From positions 1 through 57,906 of the forward strand of contig JACPUR010000034.1 of assembly GCA_016192135.1 (NCBI GenBank): a stretch of DNA of 57,906 bases, written 5' to 3'. Of the stretch, positions 4,230-57,299 are shown piece by piece; the stretch's first letter is position 1; every line of letters begins with the position of its first letter. A program made the translations under genes and the position numbers. The notes beneath the pieces were generated by a model. The model was not told where the DNA came from. It saw only the letters and a list, made by a program, of their open reading frames with translations, and made no database searches. This DNA is from Candidatus Tectomicrobia bacterium. Its GTDB lineage: Bacteria; UBA8248.

Positions 4230-5912
4230 GTGAGCGCGGACAGCCTCGCCTTCTCCTCCATCGCCGGGCTCGTCCCCCGCATCGCCAATGGTGAGGTGCG
4301 CCCCACGGAGGTGCTGGAGGCCTGCATCGCGCGGATCGAGGCCCACGACCCCCTGATCAACGCCTTCATCACCCGCACCTTCGATCTCGCCCGCCGCCAG
4401 GCGCGCGAGCGCGAGGGGGAGCTGGCTCGGGGCTTCTGCCGGGGCCCGCTCCACGGCGTGCCCGTCGCCCTCAAGGATCTGCTCGACCTTGAGGGTTTCC
4501 CCACGACGGCGGGGAGCCGCATCCTGAAGGACCACGTCCCCCGCTCCACCGCCCCGGCGGTGCGGCGGCTCATCGAGGCGGGGGCGGTCATCCTCGGGAA
4601 GACGAACCTCCAGGAGTTCGCCCGCGGGGGCACCGGGGCGGACAGCTTCTTCGGCCCCTCGCGCAACCCCTGGGACACGAACCGTACCACCGGCGGGAGC
4701 AGCAGCGGCTCGGGGGCGGCGGTGGCGGCGGGGTTCGCCCTTGGGGCGCTCGGCTCGGACACGGGGGGCTCGGTACGGCTCCCCGCTGCCTTCTGCGGCC
4801 TGGCCGGCATCCGGGGGACCTACGGGCGTGTGAGCCGCTCGGGGGCGGTGCCGCTCGGCCGGAGCTTCGACGCCGTGGGCCCCCTGGCCCGGACCGTGGA
4901 GGACGCGGCCATCCTCCTCCAGGCCATCGCGGGCCCCGACCCGGCCGACCCCTCCACAGGCCGCGCGGAGCCTCCCGATTTCCGGGCGGAGATCGGGCGG
5001 GGCGTGGAGGGCCTCACGCTTGGAGTGCCCTCGAACTACTTCTGGCCCGGCTACGACAGGGAGGTGGAGGGGCTCGCCCGCGCGGCCGTCTCGGAGCTGG
5101 AGCGGCAGGGCGCGCGCCTCGTCGAAGTCGAGGTGCCCTGGGCGGTGCTGGGCCAAGTGGCCTACGCCGCCGTGGTGGGGCCCGAGAGCGCGGAGTACCA
5201 CCTGCCCTTCCTGCGGGAGCGGCGGGAGGAGTACGTCTCCCCGGGCGCCGACTTCTTTGAGCAGAGCCTTTTCATCCCGGGCTGGCGCTACGTGCAGGCC
5301 CAGCGGGCCCGGACGCTGTTCATCCGCCAGGCGGCGGCCCTCTTCCGCCGGGTGGACGCCATCCTGACCCCCACCATCCCCATCCAGCCCCCCGCCATCG
5401 CGGACTGCCTGGACGGGATGAAGACCTGGGCCCCCATCAGCCACGCCACAGCGCCCTTCAGCACGGTGGGCGTCCCGGCCGTCCAGGTGCCCTGCGGCTT
5501 CACGCGCCTGGGCCTGCCCGCCGGGCTCCAGATCGCCGGGCGGTGGGGGGAGGAGGCGCTCCTCGTCCGGATCGCGGCGGCCTACGAGCGCGCGCATCCC
5601 TGGTGGAAGCGCAGGCCCCCGGTGGCGCCCGGCGCCCCGCCCCCCGCACCGTGGGATATCCCTTCACCCACATCCCAAAGTGGCGTAGGGGCGACCGGCC
5701 GGTCGCCCCTACAGACGGAGGAGCAAATTAAAGCGTTTGCAGAAGCGATGAACCACCGCGTCGCGCCGGAGCGACTCGACGCGCTCACGGCGGGGGTGAA
5801 CCGGCTGAACGCCTCCCTCGCCGCCCTGGACGCGCTGGATTTGAAAGACTGCGAGCGCGCCGAGACGCTAGACGTGCTGACGCTGAAAGTGGAGAACGTG
5901 CCGGAGGCCTAG
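4230..5912 (+). CDS. Amidase-signature hydrolase with C-terminal GatC/AtzG-like tail
   Basis: Residues 1 to about 465 form an amidase-signature enzyme of the GatA/AtzE type. The Ser-cisSer-Lys triad is visible as Lys82 (VALKDLLDL), Ser157 (GGSSSGSG) and Ser181 (GSDTGGS). The final 70 residues (from EEQIKAFAEAMN) look like a GatC/AtzG-type small subunit, normally a separate protein in AtzE-AtzG pairs. Between the two parts the frame runs through a perfect 28-bp palindromic repeat (5685-5712), giving a linker around GVGATGRSPLQ. There is no gatB-like gene nearby, so this is probably a stand-alone amide or ureide hydrolase, not an amidotransferase. The GTG start at 4230 follows AAGGAG by 7 bases. 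Confidence 0.85.
   Translation: MSADSLAFSSIAGLVPRIANGEVRPTEVLEACIARIEAHDPLINAFITRTFDLARRQAREREGELARGFCRGPLHGVPVALKDLLDLEGFPTTAGSRILKDHVPRSTAPAVRRLIEAGAVILGKTNLQEFARGGTGADSFFGPSRNPWDTNRTTGGSSSGSGAAVAAGFALGALGSDTGGSVRLPAAFCGLAGIRGTYGRVSRSGAVPLGRSFDAVGPLARTVEDAAILLQAIAGPDPADPSTGRAEPPDFRAEIGRGVEGLTLGVPSNYFWPGYDREVEGLARAAVSELERQGARLVEVEVPWAVLGQVAYAAVVGPESAEYHLPFLRERREEYVSPGADFFEQSLFIPGWRYVQAQRARTLFIRQAAALFRRVDAILTPTIPIQPPAIADCLDGMKTWAPISHATAPFSTVGVPAVQVPCGFTRLGLPAGLQIAGRWGEEALLVRIAAAYERAHPWWKRRPPVAPGAPPPAPWDIPSPTSQSGVGATGRSPLQTEEQIKAFAEAMNHRVAPERLDALTAGVNRLNASLAALDALDLKDCERAETLDVLTLKVENVPEA
5685..5712. repeat. GTAGGGGCG palindromic repeat, copy A1 (inside the amidase gene)
   Basis: A perfect 28-bp palindrome: GTAGGGGCGACCGG followed by its exact reverse complement. 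It lies in frame inside the amidase coding sequence at the junction with the GatC/AtzG-like tail. Relatives occur at 8468, 12238, 32602, 32639, 46265 and 46301. Confidence 0.85.
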
Positions 5913-50867: not shown

Positions 50868-50955
50868 GATGACGGGATTCGCTTCCCTACGCCGGTCTAA
50901 ACCGGATCAGGTTCGAAGGGTATCATCTCAGCCTTTCGGCACCCCCAGCGAACAG
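50868..50955 (-). promoter_or_regulatory. TPP riboswitch (THI element) of thiC
   Basis: On the minus strand the conserved cores are present: CTGGGGGTGCCGAAAGGCTGAGATGAT at the 5' side, ACCCTTCGAACCTGATC..GGTTTAGACC, and GCGTAGGGAAGC at the 3' end. TPP binding would fold it to block thiC expression. It lies about 105 bp before the start codon; the rest of the 50764-51081 gap holds nothing else recognised. Confidence 0.96.
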
Positions 50956-51081
50956 GCTCACAGCCTACCAGCCCCGGCGCATACGGTCAAAGAGGGTTTC
51001 GGACCTCAACCGCGGCGCGCGGCGGGGTGGCGACTTTCATCCCGAATGGGTGTAAGGTTTCTCCGCCCGCCCGCCCGCTTT

Positions 51082-53034
51082 ATGGATTCCGAGCCCATGC
51101 GACCCGGTTCCTCCCCCGGACCCTCCTCCCGGGCCCTGTGGCTGTGGGCGGCGGCCGTCTTCCTGGCGGCCTGCCTCCCCTACGCCGGTACGCTCTCCCA
51201 TCCCTTCGTCCACGACGATCTCACCCTCATCGGCACCAACCCGGTTGTCCAGGAGCGGGGGCGCGCCCTCGATGCCTTCCGCACGGACTACTGGGCCATG
51301 CGCAAGGGAGACGAGAAGCGCGACCGCCTCTACCGGCCCCTCACCGTCCTCACTCTGGCGCTCAACCACGCCTTGGGCGGGGAGGGGCCGGCGGGCTACC
51401 GGCTTCTCAACGTCCTCCTCCACGCCCTGGCCAGCCTGCTGCTCCTCTGGGCGGCGCTGCGGTCCGGGCTGGGGCCGCACGCGGCGGGAGCGGTGGCCCT
51501 GCTCTTCGCCCTGCACCCCATCCACACCGAGGCGGTGAACGCCGTGGTGGCCCGGGCGGACCTCATGGCCGCGGCGGGCGTCTTCGCCGGGATGGCCCTC
51601 CTCCTGGGCCGGGCGCTGCCCCCGCCCGGCGAGACGGGGGAGGGCGCCGCCCCCGGGAGGAAAGGGAAAAAAAGCGAGGCCCCGGCGCCCCCTCCGGCGC
51701 GGGCCGCGGCCCTGGGCGCGGGGGCCGGGGGCGTGTTTCTCCTCGCCCTCCTCTCGAAGGAGGCGGGCGCGGCCCTGCTTCTGTGGGCGGGGGGATGGTG
51801 GCTCTGGTGCCGCCTCGCCGGGTGGAGACGGGGGAGCGGCGCGCCCGCCCTCGCCGCCTGGGCCGGGCTGGGCGCGGCCCTCCTTCTCTACCTCGCCATG
51901 CGCTATGCGGCGCTGGGGATGTGGGCGCGGCCCGTCCCGCCCTCGCGCCTCGACAATCCGCTCGCCCACGCGGGGCTTCTCGAACAGTGGTGGGGGGCGC
52001 TCGGGGTGCTAGGCCGCTTCCTCAATCTCCTCGCCTGGCCCTGGCCCCTGAGCCTGGACTACTCCTACGCCCAGGTCCTTCCGGGCGGGATGGAGACGGC
52101 CCTCTACGCGGCGGCGGGGCTTGCGGCGATGGCGGGGTGGGGCTGGCTGGCCTGGAGGCGGCGGGAGGAGGCCCCCTGGCTGGGCCTTGGCCTCGTTCTC
52201 TTCCTGGCGGGCTACCTCCCGGCGGCCAACCTCCTGGTCCCCATCGGCACCGTCATGGCCGAGCGGACGATGTACCTGCCCTCCGCCGGTTTCCTCCTCG
52301 CCGCCGTGCCCTCGATGGCGCTGGGGCTCGCGCGCCTGGCGCGGGGGGACTGGCGCCTTCCGGCGGGGGCGCTCGCGGCGGCGGCGCTTCTCCTCGGGGG
52401 CCTCGCCTGGGCGCGCAACCGGGATTGGGCCGATCCCCTCCGCCTGTGGGGGCGCGCGGCCGAGGTTTCCCCCCGGAGCGCGCGGGCGCTGGCCACCTAC
52501 GGCCAGTATCTCAACCGCAAGGGCCGCTTCGCGGAGGCCATCCCCCCCTTGCGCGAGGCGGCGCGCATCTACCCCCTCTACGACCCCGCCTGGATCGACC
52601 TGGGCATCGCCCAGATGCAGACCCGCCACGAGAAGGAGGCGGAGGTCTCGCTCAAGGAGGCCCTGCGGCTCCGCTCCGACTCCCCCGAGGCCCACCTCGC
52701 GCTGGGGGCGCTCTACAGCGGGACGGGCCGGCTCGAGGAGGCTCAGGGCCACCTGGAGCGCGCGGTGGCCCTCGCCCCCCATTTCGCGGAGTCGCGCTTC
52801 AACCTCGGCACGCTCTACCTGAAGCTGGGCCAGCGGAAGCTCGCCATCGCCCAGCTCACCGCGGCTCTCTCGCTCGAGCCGGGGCGGGGGGACGCCCACC
52901 ACAACCTGGCCATCGCCCTCTACCTGGAGAGGGACGAGGCCGGAGCGCGCCGGCACGCCCGGGAGGCCTCCCGCCTGGGGGTGCGCCTCCACCCGGCGAT
53001 GGCCAAGGCCCTCGGGCTCGCCCCCGCGCCGTGA
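51082..53034 (+). CDS. TMTC/DUF1736-like membrane protein with C-terminal TPR repeats
   Basis: This 650-aa protein has about 10-11 membrane helices in residues 15-460. FVHDDLTLI sits after helix 1, then LYRPLTVLTLALNHALGG and LFALHPIHTEAVNAVVARADL, which are the hallmarks of the TMTC-type mannosyltransferase-like (GT-C) family. Residues about 475-630 form four to five TPR repeats, e.g. ARALATYGQYLNRKGRFAEAIPPL, AHLALGALYSGTGRLEEAQGHL and AESRFNLGTLYLKLGQRKLAI. It may transfer a sugar from a lipid carrier to envelope proteins, but this is inference. The ATG at 51082 is chosen; earlier in-frame starts lie in the riboswitch-side DNA. Confidence 0.8.
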   Translation: MDSEPMRPGSSPGPSSRALWLWAAAVFLAACLPYAGTLSHPFVHDDLTLIGTNPVVQERGRALDAFRTDYWAMRKGDEKRDRLYRPLTVLTLALNHALGGEGPAGYRLLNVLLHALASLLLLWAALRSGLGPHAAGAVALLFALHPIHTEAVNAVVARADLMAAAGVFAGMALLLGRALPPPGETGEGAAPGRKGKKSEAPAPPPARAAALGAGAGGVFLLALLSKEAGAALLLWAGGWWLWCRLAGWRRGSGAPALAAWAGLGAALLLYLAMRYAALGMWARPVPPSRLDNPLAHAGLLEQWWGALGVLGRFLNLLAWPWPLSLDYSYAQVLPGGMETALYAAAGLAAMAGWGWLAWRRREEAPWLGLGLVLFLAGYLPAANLLVPIGTVMAERTMYLPSAGFLLAAVPSMALGLARLARGDWRLPAGALAAAALLLGGLAWARNRDWADPLRLWGRAAEVSPRSARALATYGQYLNRKGRFAEAIPPLREAARIYPLYDPAWIDLGIAQMQTRHEKEAEVSLKEALRLRSDSPEAHLALGALYSGTGRLEEAQGHLERAVALAPHFAESRFNLGTLYLKLGQRKLAIAQLTAALSLEPGRGDAHHNLAIALYLERDEAGARRHAREASRLGVRLHPAMAKALGLAPAP

Positions 53035-53136
53035 GGGTTTGCGGGCGCCAGCCAATTGAATTTTCTTTGGTTTTTCAGGTTCTCACCCTTGTGATAGACT
53101 GCGGCCGCGTCCGTCCTGGTGAAGAGGTCTAGAGCA

Positions 53137-55323
53137 GTGCGTTGCGCGAAATGCGGCTATGTGACCTTCGACCGGGCCGGTGAATGCCCCCGGTGCGGCA
53201 AGAGCCTTCCCGAACCCCTGGTCGCGACGGCCGTGCTCGCGCCGGCCGCTTCCCGAGCGGGCCGCCCGGCGTTCCTCTCCTCCCTCATGCTCGGCCCCAT
53301 CCCCCGCTTCTACGGCGATCCGGGCGATCCGGCCGTCCCCTCCCTGCTCGATCCGGAGGAGGAGGGCCTTGCCGGCTCCGATCTCACGGACGGCGGGACC
53401 GAATCCCCTCCGGCCGTTGCCTCGCGCCCCGGTGGGGGTGAGGACGCGCCCGCCGCCTCGCGGGACGATCTGGCGCTCGAAGATGCGCTCGAGGGCATGG
53501 AGGAGCCGGCTGCTGGGGCGGAGGCGCTGGCCCCTCCGATCGCGGAACCTCCGGCCGCGCGCGCCCCGCGGCGCGCCGGGCCGCCCTCCGAGGAGGATGA
53601 CCCGCTCGCCTCCCTGGACCTGGGGGCCTCGCTGGAGCTGACGGAAGCGCCCACGCCCGCCCGCAGCCAGGCGGGCGCCCGGAAGGCCGGCGACCCCGGC
53701 GACGCCTTGCCCGTCGGCCTGGATGCGGCTCTCCTCGATGATAATCTCAATGAGGAAGAGGCGCCCTCGGCCGCTCCCGCCCGGGCCGCGCAGGCCACGG
53801 GGGACGCGGGCGGGGCGTCCACGGAGGCGGCGGAGGAGGACCTCGCCGCCCTCTTCGCCGACGAGGAAGCCCCGGCCCCGGCGGCCCGCCGGGCGCGGGA
53901 GAAAGCGCCGGAGGCCCCCGCCGCTTCGCAGGAGGACGAGGACGTTCTCTCGATTCTCGATGAAGCCGATGCGGCGGACGCGCCCGCCAAGGCGCCCGCA
54001 ATCTCCCGGGCTCCCGAGTCCGTTCCGTCCCGGGCCCTCCCGGCGGAGGAGGCTCCGGGGCTCGATGCCCTGGATGAGCTGGGGGTGGACGAGGCCGGCG
54101 CGGCCCCCGACCCGGCGTCCCCGGCCGCTTTGGCGGGCCCCAAGGCGGGCGAGGAGGAGGACATCTCGAACCTCTGGGCGGAGGCCTTCACCGAAGCCGC
54201 CCCTTCTCCGCCCGGGCTTCCGGACGAGCAGGGGGGAGAGTTCCCGGCCGCGCGATCTTCGGCCGCCGGGGATGGCGGCGCCGAGGACATGTGGGCGGGC
54301 GCCCTTGAAGAGGGCGGGGGCGCCCCGGCCCCGGCAAAGCGGGAGGTCGCGCCTCCGGTCGGGGCCTCCGCCGGGGGAGGAGAAGACAGCCTCTCGGACA
54401 TGTGGAGCGACGCCTTCGCCGAGCAGGAGGCCGCGGCCAAGGCCCAGCGCGAGGGGAAGAAGCCTCAGGCGGGGGCGGCCGACCTGGGCGAGGGCGACCT
54501 CGAGCAGATGTGGTCGGAGGCCCTGAACGAATCCGGGGACGCCCCCCGCGCGGCCGCGCCCGCCGGCGCGGCCCCGGCCGAGGCGGAGCTTCCCAAGGAG
54601 GATTTGGCCGGCTTCCTCGACGAAGGCGAGGCGGTCCCGGCTTCCACCCCCGCCGAGGACGAAGCCGCCGCCGGGGACGCCAAGAAGGCGCCGGTCCGGC
54701 CGGGCGGCGGATTGATGGCGGACGACGAGGATTCCGGCGATATCGAGGCCTATGTCCCCGACGAGGCCCCCGCGGCGGCGGCTCCTCCCGAGGGGAAGGC
54801 GCCGGCCGGGGATTTCTTCGAAGGCGGGGCCGCCGCCCCGGAGGAGCCTGAGGAAGAAGAGGAGGAAAAGGGGAAGGCCGAGGTCATCGGGGTCCCGCTG
54901 GCCGCCCGCGCCGCGGCGGGAGCGGTGGATTTTGGCGTCCTGGCGGCCTTGCAGGCCGTCTTCGCGTTCATCTCCCACGGGATCGTGAGCCGGGCGGCCG
55001 GGCCGGTTTCGGCGAACATGGAGGCGCTCATCCTGCTCGGTCTCCTCAACGGAGTGGTGCTGTTCCTGCTCTCCATCTTTTACTCGGTCTATTTCGTCGG
55101 AATGTTCGGCTGCACCCCGGGCCAGAGGTGCATGGGACTGTCGGTGGTGGACATGGAGGACAAGCCGGTACAATACATGCAGGCGATTCTGCGTTACTTT
55201 GGCGGCCTCGCGGCCACCCTTCCCCTGGGAGCGGGACACCTCCTGGTCCCCTTCGACAAGAAGCGCCGGGGGATCGGAGACCGCCTGGCGGGGACCCGTG
55301 TGGTCCTCAAGATGAAGGTGTAG
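53137..55323 (+). CDS. Zinc-ribbon, acidic-linker, RDD-domain membrane protein with repeated Trp motif
   Basis: The N-terminus (CAKCGYVTF...CPRCGK) is a four-Cys zinc ribbon. Residues about 30-590 are a long, disordered, Ala/Glu/Asp/Pro-rich linker. Within it a short motif recurs four times at 36-39-residue spacing: ISNLWAEAF, AEDMWAGAL, LSDMWSDAF and LEQMWSEAL. The C-terminus is an RDD domain (LAARAAAGAVDFGVLAAL, then GCTPGQRCMGLSVVD, and RRGIGDRLAGTRVV) with two to three membrane helices. The repeats suggest a multivalent docking platform on the cytosolic side. GTG 53137 puts the zinc ribbon at residue 2; GTG 53119 is a close alternative. Confidence 0.75.
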   Translation: MRCAKCGYVTFDRAGECPRCGKSLPEPLVATAVLAPAASRAGRPAFLSSLMLGPIPRFYGDPGDPAVPSLLDPEEEGLAGSDLTDGGTESPPAVASRPGGGEDAPAASRDDLALEDALEGMEEPAAGAEALAPPIAEPPAARAPRRAGPPSEEDDPLASLDLGASLELTEAPTPARSQAGARKAGDPGDALPVGLDAALLDDNLNEEEAPSAAPARAAQATGDAGGASTEAAEEDLAALFADEEAPAPAARRAREKAPEAPAASQEDEDVLSILDEADAADAPAKAPAISRAPESVPSRALPAEEAPGLDALDELGVDEAGAAPDPASPAALAGPKAGEEEDISNLWAEAFTEAAPSPPGLPDEQGGEFPAARSSAAGDGGAEDMWAGALEEGGGAPAPAKREVAPPVGASAGGGEDSLSDMWSDAFAEQEAAAKAQREGKKPQAGAADLGEGDLEQMWSEALNESGDAPRAAAPAGAAPAEAELPKEDLAGFLDEGEAVPASTPAEDEAAAGDAKKAPVRPGGGLMADDEDSGDIEAYVPDEAPAAAAPPEGKAPAGDFFEGGAAAPEEPEEEEEEKGKAEVIGVPLAARAAAGAVDFGVLAALQAVFAFISHGIVSRAAGPVSANMEALILLGLLNGVVLFLLSIFYSVYFVGMFGCTPGQRCMGLSVVDMEDKPVQYMQAILRYFGGLAATLPLGAGHLLVPFDKKRRGIGDRLAGTRVVLKMKV

Positions 55324-55385: not shown

Positions 55386-57299
55386 ATGATGCGCAAAGCC
55401 CTGCGGTGGACAGCCGGCCTCATGACGCTCGCCCTCCTGGCGGCGGCCCCCTGGGCCGGCGCCCAGGGGATGGATTCCGCGCGGGCGCTTCAATCCCTCA
55501 GCGACAAGCTCCACCAGCGCTACCCCCACCTGGAGGGCCACGTGGTGGCCGTCAGGGGAGGCGACCTCTATCTGAGCCTGGGCGAGAAGGATCGCCCGGT
55601 CAAGGGGGTGAAGCTCACGGTTTTGCGCAAGGGCGCCCCCTTCCGCCATCCGGTCACCGGCGCGGTCCTGGGGACGCTCGAGGAGGAGGTCGGCGAGGCC
55701 GAGGTGGTGGAGGTGCAGCCCAAGTTCTCGGTCGCGCGGATGGTGCGCCTCGCCCCGGGCCGGGACCTGGCGCCCCAGGTGAACGACATCGTGCGGCTCT
55801 CCTCGGCCAAGATCCGCCTCGCCGTCCTGCCCTTCATCAACCAGACCAAGGAATCCCTGGGGATGGACGTCCTGACGCGGGAACTGGCGCAGATGCTCCT
55901 GGCGCAGGGGCGGTTCGACGTGTACGACGTGGACCGGCTTCAGGTGTGGATGCTGGAGCAGGGGCTGGCGGTGGATGAGCTCCTGAAGGGGGACAATTCC
56001 ATCAAGCTCCGCAACCAGGTGCGCTCCGATCTGGCGCTGGAGACGAGCGTCCGCGACGTTCGGGGCAAGAAGGTCATCACCAGCCGGCTCGTGTCGCTCA
56101 CCAACCGGGAGGAGCTGTTCCAGGCGGTGGCCATCGCGGACGAGCTTCCGTTCGAGCAGCGGCCTCCCCGCGAGCAGGCCCTGCGCCGGGGGGAGGGGGG
56201 AGCGCCGGTCAGCGGGCTCGCCTCGAACCCGAGCTTCATCCTGAACCGCGAGGGCGTCCCCGGCGCGAAGGGCCGGGTGACCAACTTCCAGTTCGACGGC
56301 AAGTTCCGCGGCCTCGCGGTGGCGGACCTGGACGGCGACGGGAAGAACGAGGTGGTCATCATCACGGTGAACGAGGTGCGGGTCTACCAGTTCGCCCAGA
56401 ACCGGATGCGCGAAGTGGCGCGCTTCAGCGACGGGCGCGCGAACGACTACCGCTGGGTGGACGCGGCCGACATGAACGGCAATGGGAAGGCGGAACTCTA
56501 CATCGCCAACTACCGCTACGGCGGTCTTTTCTCCCTCGTATTGGAGCTGCAGGGCAAGGAATTCAAGACGCTGGCGGACAACGAGAGCGTTTTCTTCCGC
56601 CTGCTCCGCGTCCGGCGCCCCGAGCGCGGGGCCAAGATCCCCGACGCCGACGCCTTCCTCCTCCTGGGCCAGATCCAGGGGCTCGGCAAGCCCTTCGAGG
56701 GGCCCATCCAGCGCTACCGGTGGTCGGGCAGCCGGCTCGCCGCGGCCGCCCCGTACCTCCTGCCGTCGCGCTTGAACATCCTGGGCTTCGGCCTGTGGGA
56801 CGTGGACAAGGACGGCACCCTCGATGTCATCGAGGTGGGGGAGGACGACAAGCTGCGCGTTTTCTCCCGGCGGGGCGAGCAGAGGTTCGTGAGCGCGGGC
56901 CGCTATGGGGGGCCCGTGCACACTTTCTTTTCCAAGGAAGTTAGCAGCGATGAAGAGTTGGGCGGGCGCACCCCCGACCTCCCCATCCGGTCGAGGGTCC
57001 TGGTCGCCGACGTGGACGGGGACGGGACCGACGAAGTGCTCGTCATCGCGAATGAATATTCCGCCACCCGGCTCGTGCCCGGCCTTGGGGTCGGGAGCGG
57101 GCAGATCGCCAGCCTGGTCTGGGACGGCAGCGGCCTCTCCGACATCTGGAGGTCCACCAAGCTCTCCAAGGGGATCGCCGATTTCGCCTATGCCGACGCC
57201 GACAACGACGGCCTGGAGGACCTCGTGGTGATCACCACCGATACGGGGGTCCTCCCGGACGACATTAGCACCTTATATATATTCAAAACAAAGGGTTAG
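55386..57299 (+). CDS. Exported FG-GAP/VCBS beta-propeller protein with CsgG/TolB-like N-terminal domain
   Basis: This 637-aa protein has a signal peptide (residues 1-27). The N-terminal part (to about 300) contains LAVLPFINQTKESLGMDVLTRELAQMLLAQGRFDVYDVDRL, typical of CsgG- or TolB-N-like domains that bind outer-membrane partners. The rest is a beta-propeller with five FG-GAP calcium loops: VADLDGDGKNEVV, AADMNGNGKAELY, LWDVDKDGTLDVI, VADVDGDGTDEVL and YADADNDGLEDLV. It is probably periplasmic or surface-exposed. The ATG at 55386 has AGGAG 13 bases upstream; ATG 55389 is an alternative. It follows the RDD gene by 62 bp. Confidence 0.85.
   Translation: MMRKALRWTAGLMTLALLAAAPWAGAQGMDSARALQSLSDKLHQRYPHLEGHVVAVRGGDLYLSLGEKDRPVKGVKLTVLRKGAPFRHPVTGAVLGTLEEEVGEAEVVEVQPKFSVARMVRLAPGRDLAPQVNDIVRLSSAKIRLAVLPFINQTKESLGMDVLTRELAQMLLAQGRFDVYDVDRLQVWMLEQGLAVDELLKGDNSIKLRNQVRSDLALETSVRDVRGKKVITSRLVSLTNREELFQAVAIADELPFEQRPPREQALRRGEGGAPVSGLASNPSFILNREGVPGAKGRVTNFQFDGKFRGLAVADLDGDGKNEVVIITVNEVRVYQFAQNRMREVARFSDGRANDYRWVDAADMNGNGKAELYIANYRYGGLFSLVLELQGKEFKTLADNESVFFRLLRVRRPERGAKIPDADAFLLLGQIQGLGKPFEGPIQRYRWSGSRLAAAAPYLLPSRLNILGFGLWDVDKDGTLDVIEVGEDDKLRVFSRRGEQRFVSAGRYGGPVHTFFSKEVSSDEELGGRTPDLPIRSRVLVADVDGDGTDEVLVIANEYSATRLVPGLGVGSGQIASLVWDGSGLSDIWRSTKLSKGIADFAYADADNDGLEDLVVITTDTGVLPDDISTLYIFKTKG

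Follow-up and report, generated by a model that had tools for sequence, protein, structure and literature searches.

What does a membrane protein do with a disordered acidic linker of more than 500 residues in which a short tryptophan motif recurs four times? The question is raised by a gene at 53137–55323 of the window, that is, the whole stretch of 57,906 nucleotides from a Candidatus Tectomicrobia bacterium analysed here; this gene and all other features located in the window below are on the forward strand. The layout proposed in the initial annotation, a zinc ribbon, a disordered acidic linker and a membrane RDD domain, is borne out by Pfam profiles, residue composition and predicted local confidence (pLDDT). 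The reading frame is open from a GTG at 53119 (734 residues counted from there, the numbering used for all residues of this protein), and the likeliest start is the GTG at 53137, giving 728 amino acids, because AAGAGG lies 9 bases upstream and the orthologues start at an identical V-R-C. Pfam matches to the N-terminal zinc ribbon (CAKCGYVTFDRAGECPRCG, residues 9–28, 53143–53202) are weak and below the cut-off; its CxxC...CxxC pattern is clear and conserved in the orthologues. The Ala/Pro-rich linker (residues 35–588, about 550 residues, 53221–54882) contains 22% Asp plus Glu, 25% Ala and 12% Pro, and is followed by the RDD domain (residues 594–725, 54898–55293), which PF06271 matches with 67.6 bits against a cut-off of 24.1 (E 1.7e-18). 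The AlphaFold2 model, built with the orthologues in the alignment, is weak evidence because this alignment is shallow (eight rows); it shows pLDDT <50 across nearly the whole linker, with helices in the RDD domain and, within the linker, at motif copies 3 and 4 only.

All four tryptophans of the protein sit in the four motifs, at the places that the initial annotation had given. Copy 1 lies around DISNLWAEAFTE (54163–54198; Trp 353, codon at 54175), copy 2 around GAEDMWAGALEE (54280–54315; Trp 392, codon at 54292), copy 3 around LSDMWSDAFAEQ (54391–54426; Trp 429, codon at 54403; predicted helix 425–445) and copy 4 around LEQMWSEALNES (54499–54534; Trp 465, codon at 54511; predicted helix 459–470). 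When the linker was shuffled 200,000 times, two matches to the pattern [LMIV]WxxA[FLMI] were obtained 12 times and three or more were never obtained. The hydrophobic moment of the motif helix stands out for copies 1 and 4 only and is uninformative on amphipathicity. The spacing from Trp to Trp is 39, 37 and 36 residues, and the evenness claimed for it holds in the genus of the window protein but not in its relatives, where the copies number 2–5 and the gaps range from 31 to 118 residues. Such variation in number and spacing fits docking peptides arranged as beads on a string rather than a folded repeat.

Comparison with relatives indicates that the motif copies are retained by selection. The tryptophans, whose conservation the initial annotation had taken as decisive, are kept together with their motifs in all sufficiently long orthologues, and conservation extends over the whole 12–14 residues, including the Gln and the acidic positions; the motifs are 75% identical at the amino-acid level, against 50% for the linker. 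By the Nei–Gojobori method, and with few motif codons to count, the comparison G000-G002 yields a dN/dS of 0.10 for the motifs, 0.39 for the remaining linker and 0.25 for the RDD domain, while the pair G012-G004 gives 0.03 in the motifs and 0.26 in the linker. The idea that these are short linear motifs in disorder, putatively able to bind a partner many times over, is thus supported in kind. The exceptions are a Trp-to-Leu change in G004 (copy 4), a copy cut short in G008 and, in the G012 orthologue (L030, G012:C43, about 5034–5036), a TAG in frame two codons ahead of Trp 4. The stop in G012 and the substitution in G004 suggest that the constraint may be loosening in the group without flagella.

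As to what the motif is, profile comparisons identify it as the N-terminal motif of the flagellar switch protein FliN (Pfam FliN_N, PF16973). In the window protein, in which copy 3 gives the best match, FliN_N scores 24.9 bits against a cut-off of 24, and because this margin is thin, the identity was tested in three ways. Firstly, the orthologues show a sharper motif, such as DDLWAEAFAEQEA, with FliN_N E values of up to 2.5e-11 in L029 of genome G007, where the motifs read DADDLWAEAFAEQEA; in two FliL-type proteins of a second phylum (see below), E values reach 4.4e-13 and 2.7e-15. Secondly, a 20-residue profile built from 31 instances of the motif, with no FliN sequence among them, was run against 177,635 PDB sequences and retrieved Salmonella FliN (ALDDLWADALNEQKAT) as the top hit with an E value of 8.4e-5, the next, unrelated, hit being at 0.51. 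Thirdly, FliN_N matches at E <= 0.01 across 386 sampled genomes fall almost exclusively on proteins with such motif arrays, so acidic disorder per se does not produce the match. A match in L077, a regulator-like protein of a different kind, looks like chance. A hunt with our motif profile through the same 386 genomes found arrays in two phyla only, plus four weak single hits.

In Salmonella FliN (residues 14–29), the same D-D-L-W-A-x-A-F/L-x-E-Q motif also lies in a disordered acidic stretch. FliN has one copy before its SPOA domain, whereas the window protein has four copies before a membrane domain and no Pfam match to SPOA (PF01052). The FliN-like proteins of the window genome (G000) lack the motif: contig C37 carries its three SPOA proteins, and there FliM is followed by a tandem pair of short FliN-like SPOA proteins (L045, G000:C37:30530–31238), both without it. 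A related N-terminal motif occurs in two tandem copies, ALAEEWANALMKEEG and ALADEWAKALATQEV, in the FliN-like protein L038 of genome G040.

A second switch-type motif lies on the array arm of some orthologues. A FliM-type motif resembling SQDELDALL follows the Trp motifs in four of them, reading VSQADLDALL in G007, VSQDELDSPL in G014, VGQDELDALL in G004 and LSQGDLDDLL in G003; it is matched by 1, 4, 9 and 18 per 1000 shuffled linkers, respectively. The N-terminal LSQxEIDALL of FliM and FliY is likewise a disordered, helix-forming ligand, but it stands there at the N-terminus of a C-ring protein, not on an array arm, and in the window protein it has a degenerate counterpart (LPKEDLAGFLDEG, 54589–54627) in the same alignment column as in these four genomes. 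The site (LPKEDLAGFL) is plausible by eye but not significant: the best-scoring site, elsewhere in the window linker, is already equalled in 432 of 1000 shuffles, so we claim the FliM-type motif for the relatives only. In L117 and L124, FliN-type and FliM-type motifs grade into one another (NQDELDNLWAEA, LSQDELWNEAFADQ), which may point to a single type of binding groove for both.

Similar arrays are found on a different membrane domain in the second phylum, where a search centred on G309 gave FliN_N matches in 30 of 77 genomes, mostly in large acidic proteins. Most of the fifteen proteins that we read consist of an MJ0042-type zinc ribbon, LDxLLDDL-like repeats, 2–7 copies of SEEDMWAEAFADQ, one transmembrane helix and a C-terminal domain that Pfam recognizes as FliL in 10 of 11 members (best E 2.6e-5, mostly below the cut-off). 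Foldseek agrees: FliL accounts for all of its eleven best hits, with E values from 4.7e-5 and TM-scores by target of up to 0.82. The layout of zinc ribbon, FliN-motif array and membrane anchor thus comes with either of two membrane domains; judged by the motifs and zinc ribbon that both families share, it recurs in two phyla as analogous proteins. FliL, a stator-associated protein, is itself a separate short protein in the flagellar locus of the window genome, and where the second-phylum array proteins carry a periplasmic domain that folds as FliL, the window protein has RDD. In the G309 protein (L076/L091, 1–600), whose gene overruns the contig start, the acidic arm contains near-identical tandem repeats with DLDGLMDDILTD. 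In four of the five genomes of this phylum that were examined, genes near the array gene encode a lytic transglycosylase as well as a secreted protein bearing FimV_N (E 2.8e-12 to 2.5e-9), FimV_core and SPOR domains, so that FimV/HubP looks as if it were split over two genes. These secreted proteins (L192:10277–12472, L193:3259–5256 on the reverse strand, L194:3192–5342 on the reverse strand and L196:10817–12847) lack a cytoplasmic acidic arm.

The initial annotation knew of no described system of this kind. That still holds for the layout, for which a literature search (zinc ribbon, motif array and membrane part) returned no paper, but not for the motif, known from FliN; what we describe is a known docking motif in a new, multivalent membrane presentation, in a layout that recurs and is undescribed. 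Two other kinds of protein come close to it. The zinc ribbon-RDD proteins L034 and L061, like GltJ-type MJ0042 proteins, have an N-terminal zinc ribbon, a linker and a membrane part, but the linkers of L034 and L061 are short and without the motif. The GltJ model (NCBIfam NF033761) does not match the window protein and matches L118 at 5.1e-7 over its first 135 residues, far below the cut-off. HubP and FimV share with the window protein a long, acidic, poorly conserved, motif-bearing disordered arm on a membrane anchor, yet the window protein has a zinc ribbon and RDD in place of LysM/FimV_N and the C-terminal TPR, and its motifs are FliN-like.

Taken at the level of sequence, these features indicate that the protein probably captures some cell protein in many copies at the membrane. 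More specifically, we infer a membrane-anchored, multivalent docking array with a cytoplasmic arm, most likely for a CheY-like receiver, a reading to which we give about even chances. The RDD domain would anchor the protein in the inner membrane, from which the floppy acidic arm would extend into the cytoplasm. Each Trp motif would act as a short helix-forming ligand of the type that FliN bears once in its disordered N-terminus, and many copies per arm would concentrate a cytoplasmic partner locally at the membrane. The array would then be a membrane sink or hub for the receiver, possibly at the pole. A CheY-like receiver ranks first for us, since the two motif types both lead to CheY and since receiver proteins are common in genomes without flagella. 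The disordered N-terminal LSQxEIDALL of FliM is a ligand of CheY-P (PMC6700473; PMC9126983), and the FliN N-terminus, also disordered and dispensable for FliN function, seems to tune the affinity for CheY-P (PMC6700473).

Hints at flagella, chemotaxis or polarity come from the FliN and FliM motifs, from the FliL domain and from the FimV neighbour. In the phylum of the window, the array protein is present in 9 of 18 sampled genomes: all five with FliM/FliN versus 4 of the 13 without (Fisher p about 0.015, calculated by hand and ignoring kinship). FliM/FliN are present in 28 of the 30 array genomes of the second phylum versus 35 of its 47 array-less genomes. However, the association has limits. 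FliM/FliN were not found in the array-bearing G003, G004, G008 and G012, which are draft MAGs of 90–98% completeness in which absence is not proof, nor CheW in the last three. Motifs under purifying selection in genomes without FliM/FliN, CheW or FlhG argue that the flagellar switch is not the sole partner, and neither SPOA proteins nor classical CheA/CheW chemotaxis can fill that role. In G004, G008 and G012, which lack both FliM/FliN and CheW, classical CheY-P signalling would be absent and the receiver would be a different one. A bolder form of the receiver reading goes further: membrane proteins of two phyla, of RDD or FliL type, may mimic the switch N-termini with many FliN- and FliM-type helices and so titrate or relocate the signal protein of the switch at the membrane or pole, with flagellum-less descendants keeping the array for a non-flagellar receiver. 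We put this forward tentatively, as possible but with the balance somewhat against it.

Among the alternatives, a HubP/FimV-like hub at the pole or in the envelope survives best, though we consider it rather unlikely. Here, the array would recruit MinD/ParA-like ATPases such as FlhG, or polarity clients, and the RDD or FliL part would position them; FimV's task in the second phylum would be divided between a periplasmic FimV_N-LysM-SPOR gene and the neighbouring cytoplasmic array gene. The genes for FimV_N, FimV_core and SPOR proteins close to the array gene in the four genomes mentioned above favour this view, as does the long acidic cytoplasmic arm of HubP and FimV, which has varying repeats and a role under study (PMC12918733), and FlhG does bind the FliM N-terminus in monotrichous bacteria (PMC12826062). 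Yet the window protein and its neighbours have no FimV domain, and no FlhG orthologue was found in the array-bearing G003, G004, G008 and G012, FlhG being confined to flagellated genomes in this phylum, which rules it out as the sole partner.

The co-occurrence with FliM/FliN in both phyla, together with the fusion of the second-phylum array to a stator-associated protein, is also what would be expected if the array were a docking site for switch or export parts (the SPOA domains of FliM/FliN, or FliH), keeping C-ring parts close to the membrane during assembly, or close to the stators. We judge this quite unlikely, as the array genes are situated outside flagellar loci and no SPOA domain was detected in either genome of the pair with a motif dN/dS of 0.03. 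Very doubtful is the proposal of sticker-like Trp motifs that associate with one another or with the RDD domain, the protein thereby forming membrane-bound condensates without a dedicated partner: the few strong stickers, separated by acidic Ala/Pro-rich spacers and variable in number and spacing, would suit it, but plain stickers need only the aromatic residue, whereas here the full motif is conserved and matches FliN. That the motifs are nothing functional, merely chance or duplicated low-complexity sequence in GC-rich DNA, is extremely improbable in view of the shuffling result, the dN/dS contrast and the recurrence in two phyla.

The arrays bear on wider questions. The binding partner of the FliN N-terminal Trp motif is a gap in the picture of the flagellar switch, and selected arrays with up to seven copies, some of them in genomes without flagella, are a natural amplified bait for it. 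They show that the docking peptides of the switch serve as a module in their own right on membrane scaffolds, and give a tangible example of a possible task for the acidic arms of HubP/FimV-like proteins.

The array gene is flanked by genes for a membrane protein with C-terminal TPR repeats (50869–53034), found at the same position in relatives, and for a secreted FG-GAP propeller protein with a weak LpoB/FlgT_C-like N-terminal part (55386–57299), found in 16 of the phylum's 18 genomes. The array gene was not found in any of the seven g5 genomes, all of which have the FG-GAP gene; where gene order was inspected, in three of them, ThiC, TPR protein and FG-GAP protein follow one another intact, with the zinc ribbon-RDD gene absent between the last two. 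Since the TPR and FG-GAP genes persist where the array gene has been lost, they do not need it, and a partner cannot be deduced by operon logic. Together with the in-frame stop in G012, the absence from the g5 genomes marks the array gene as dispensable. The gaps between the TPR and FG-GAP genes are clean (L180 6321–6462, L181 6331–6560 and L183 6652–6874) and represent a natural loss useful for comparison. The FG-GAP neighbour is 49–85% identical across the phylum.
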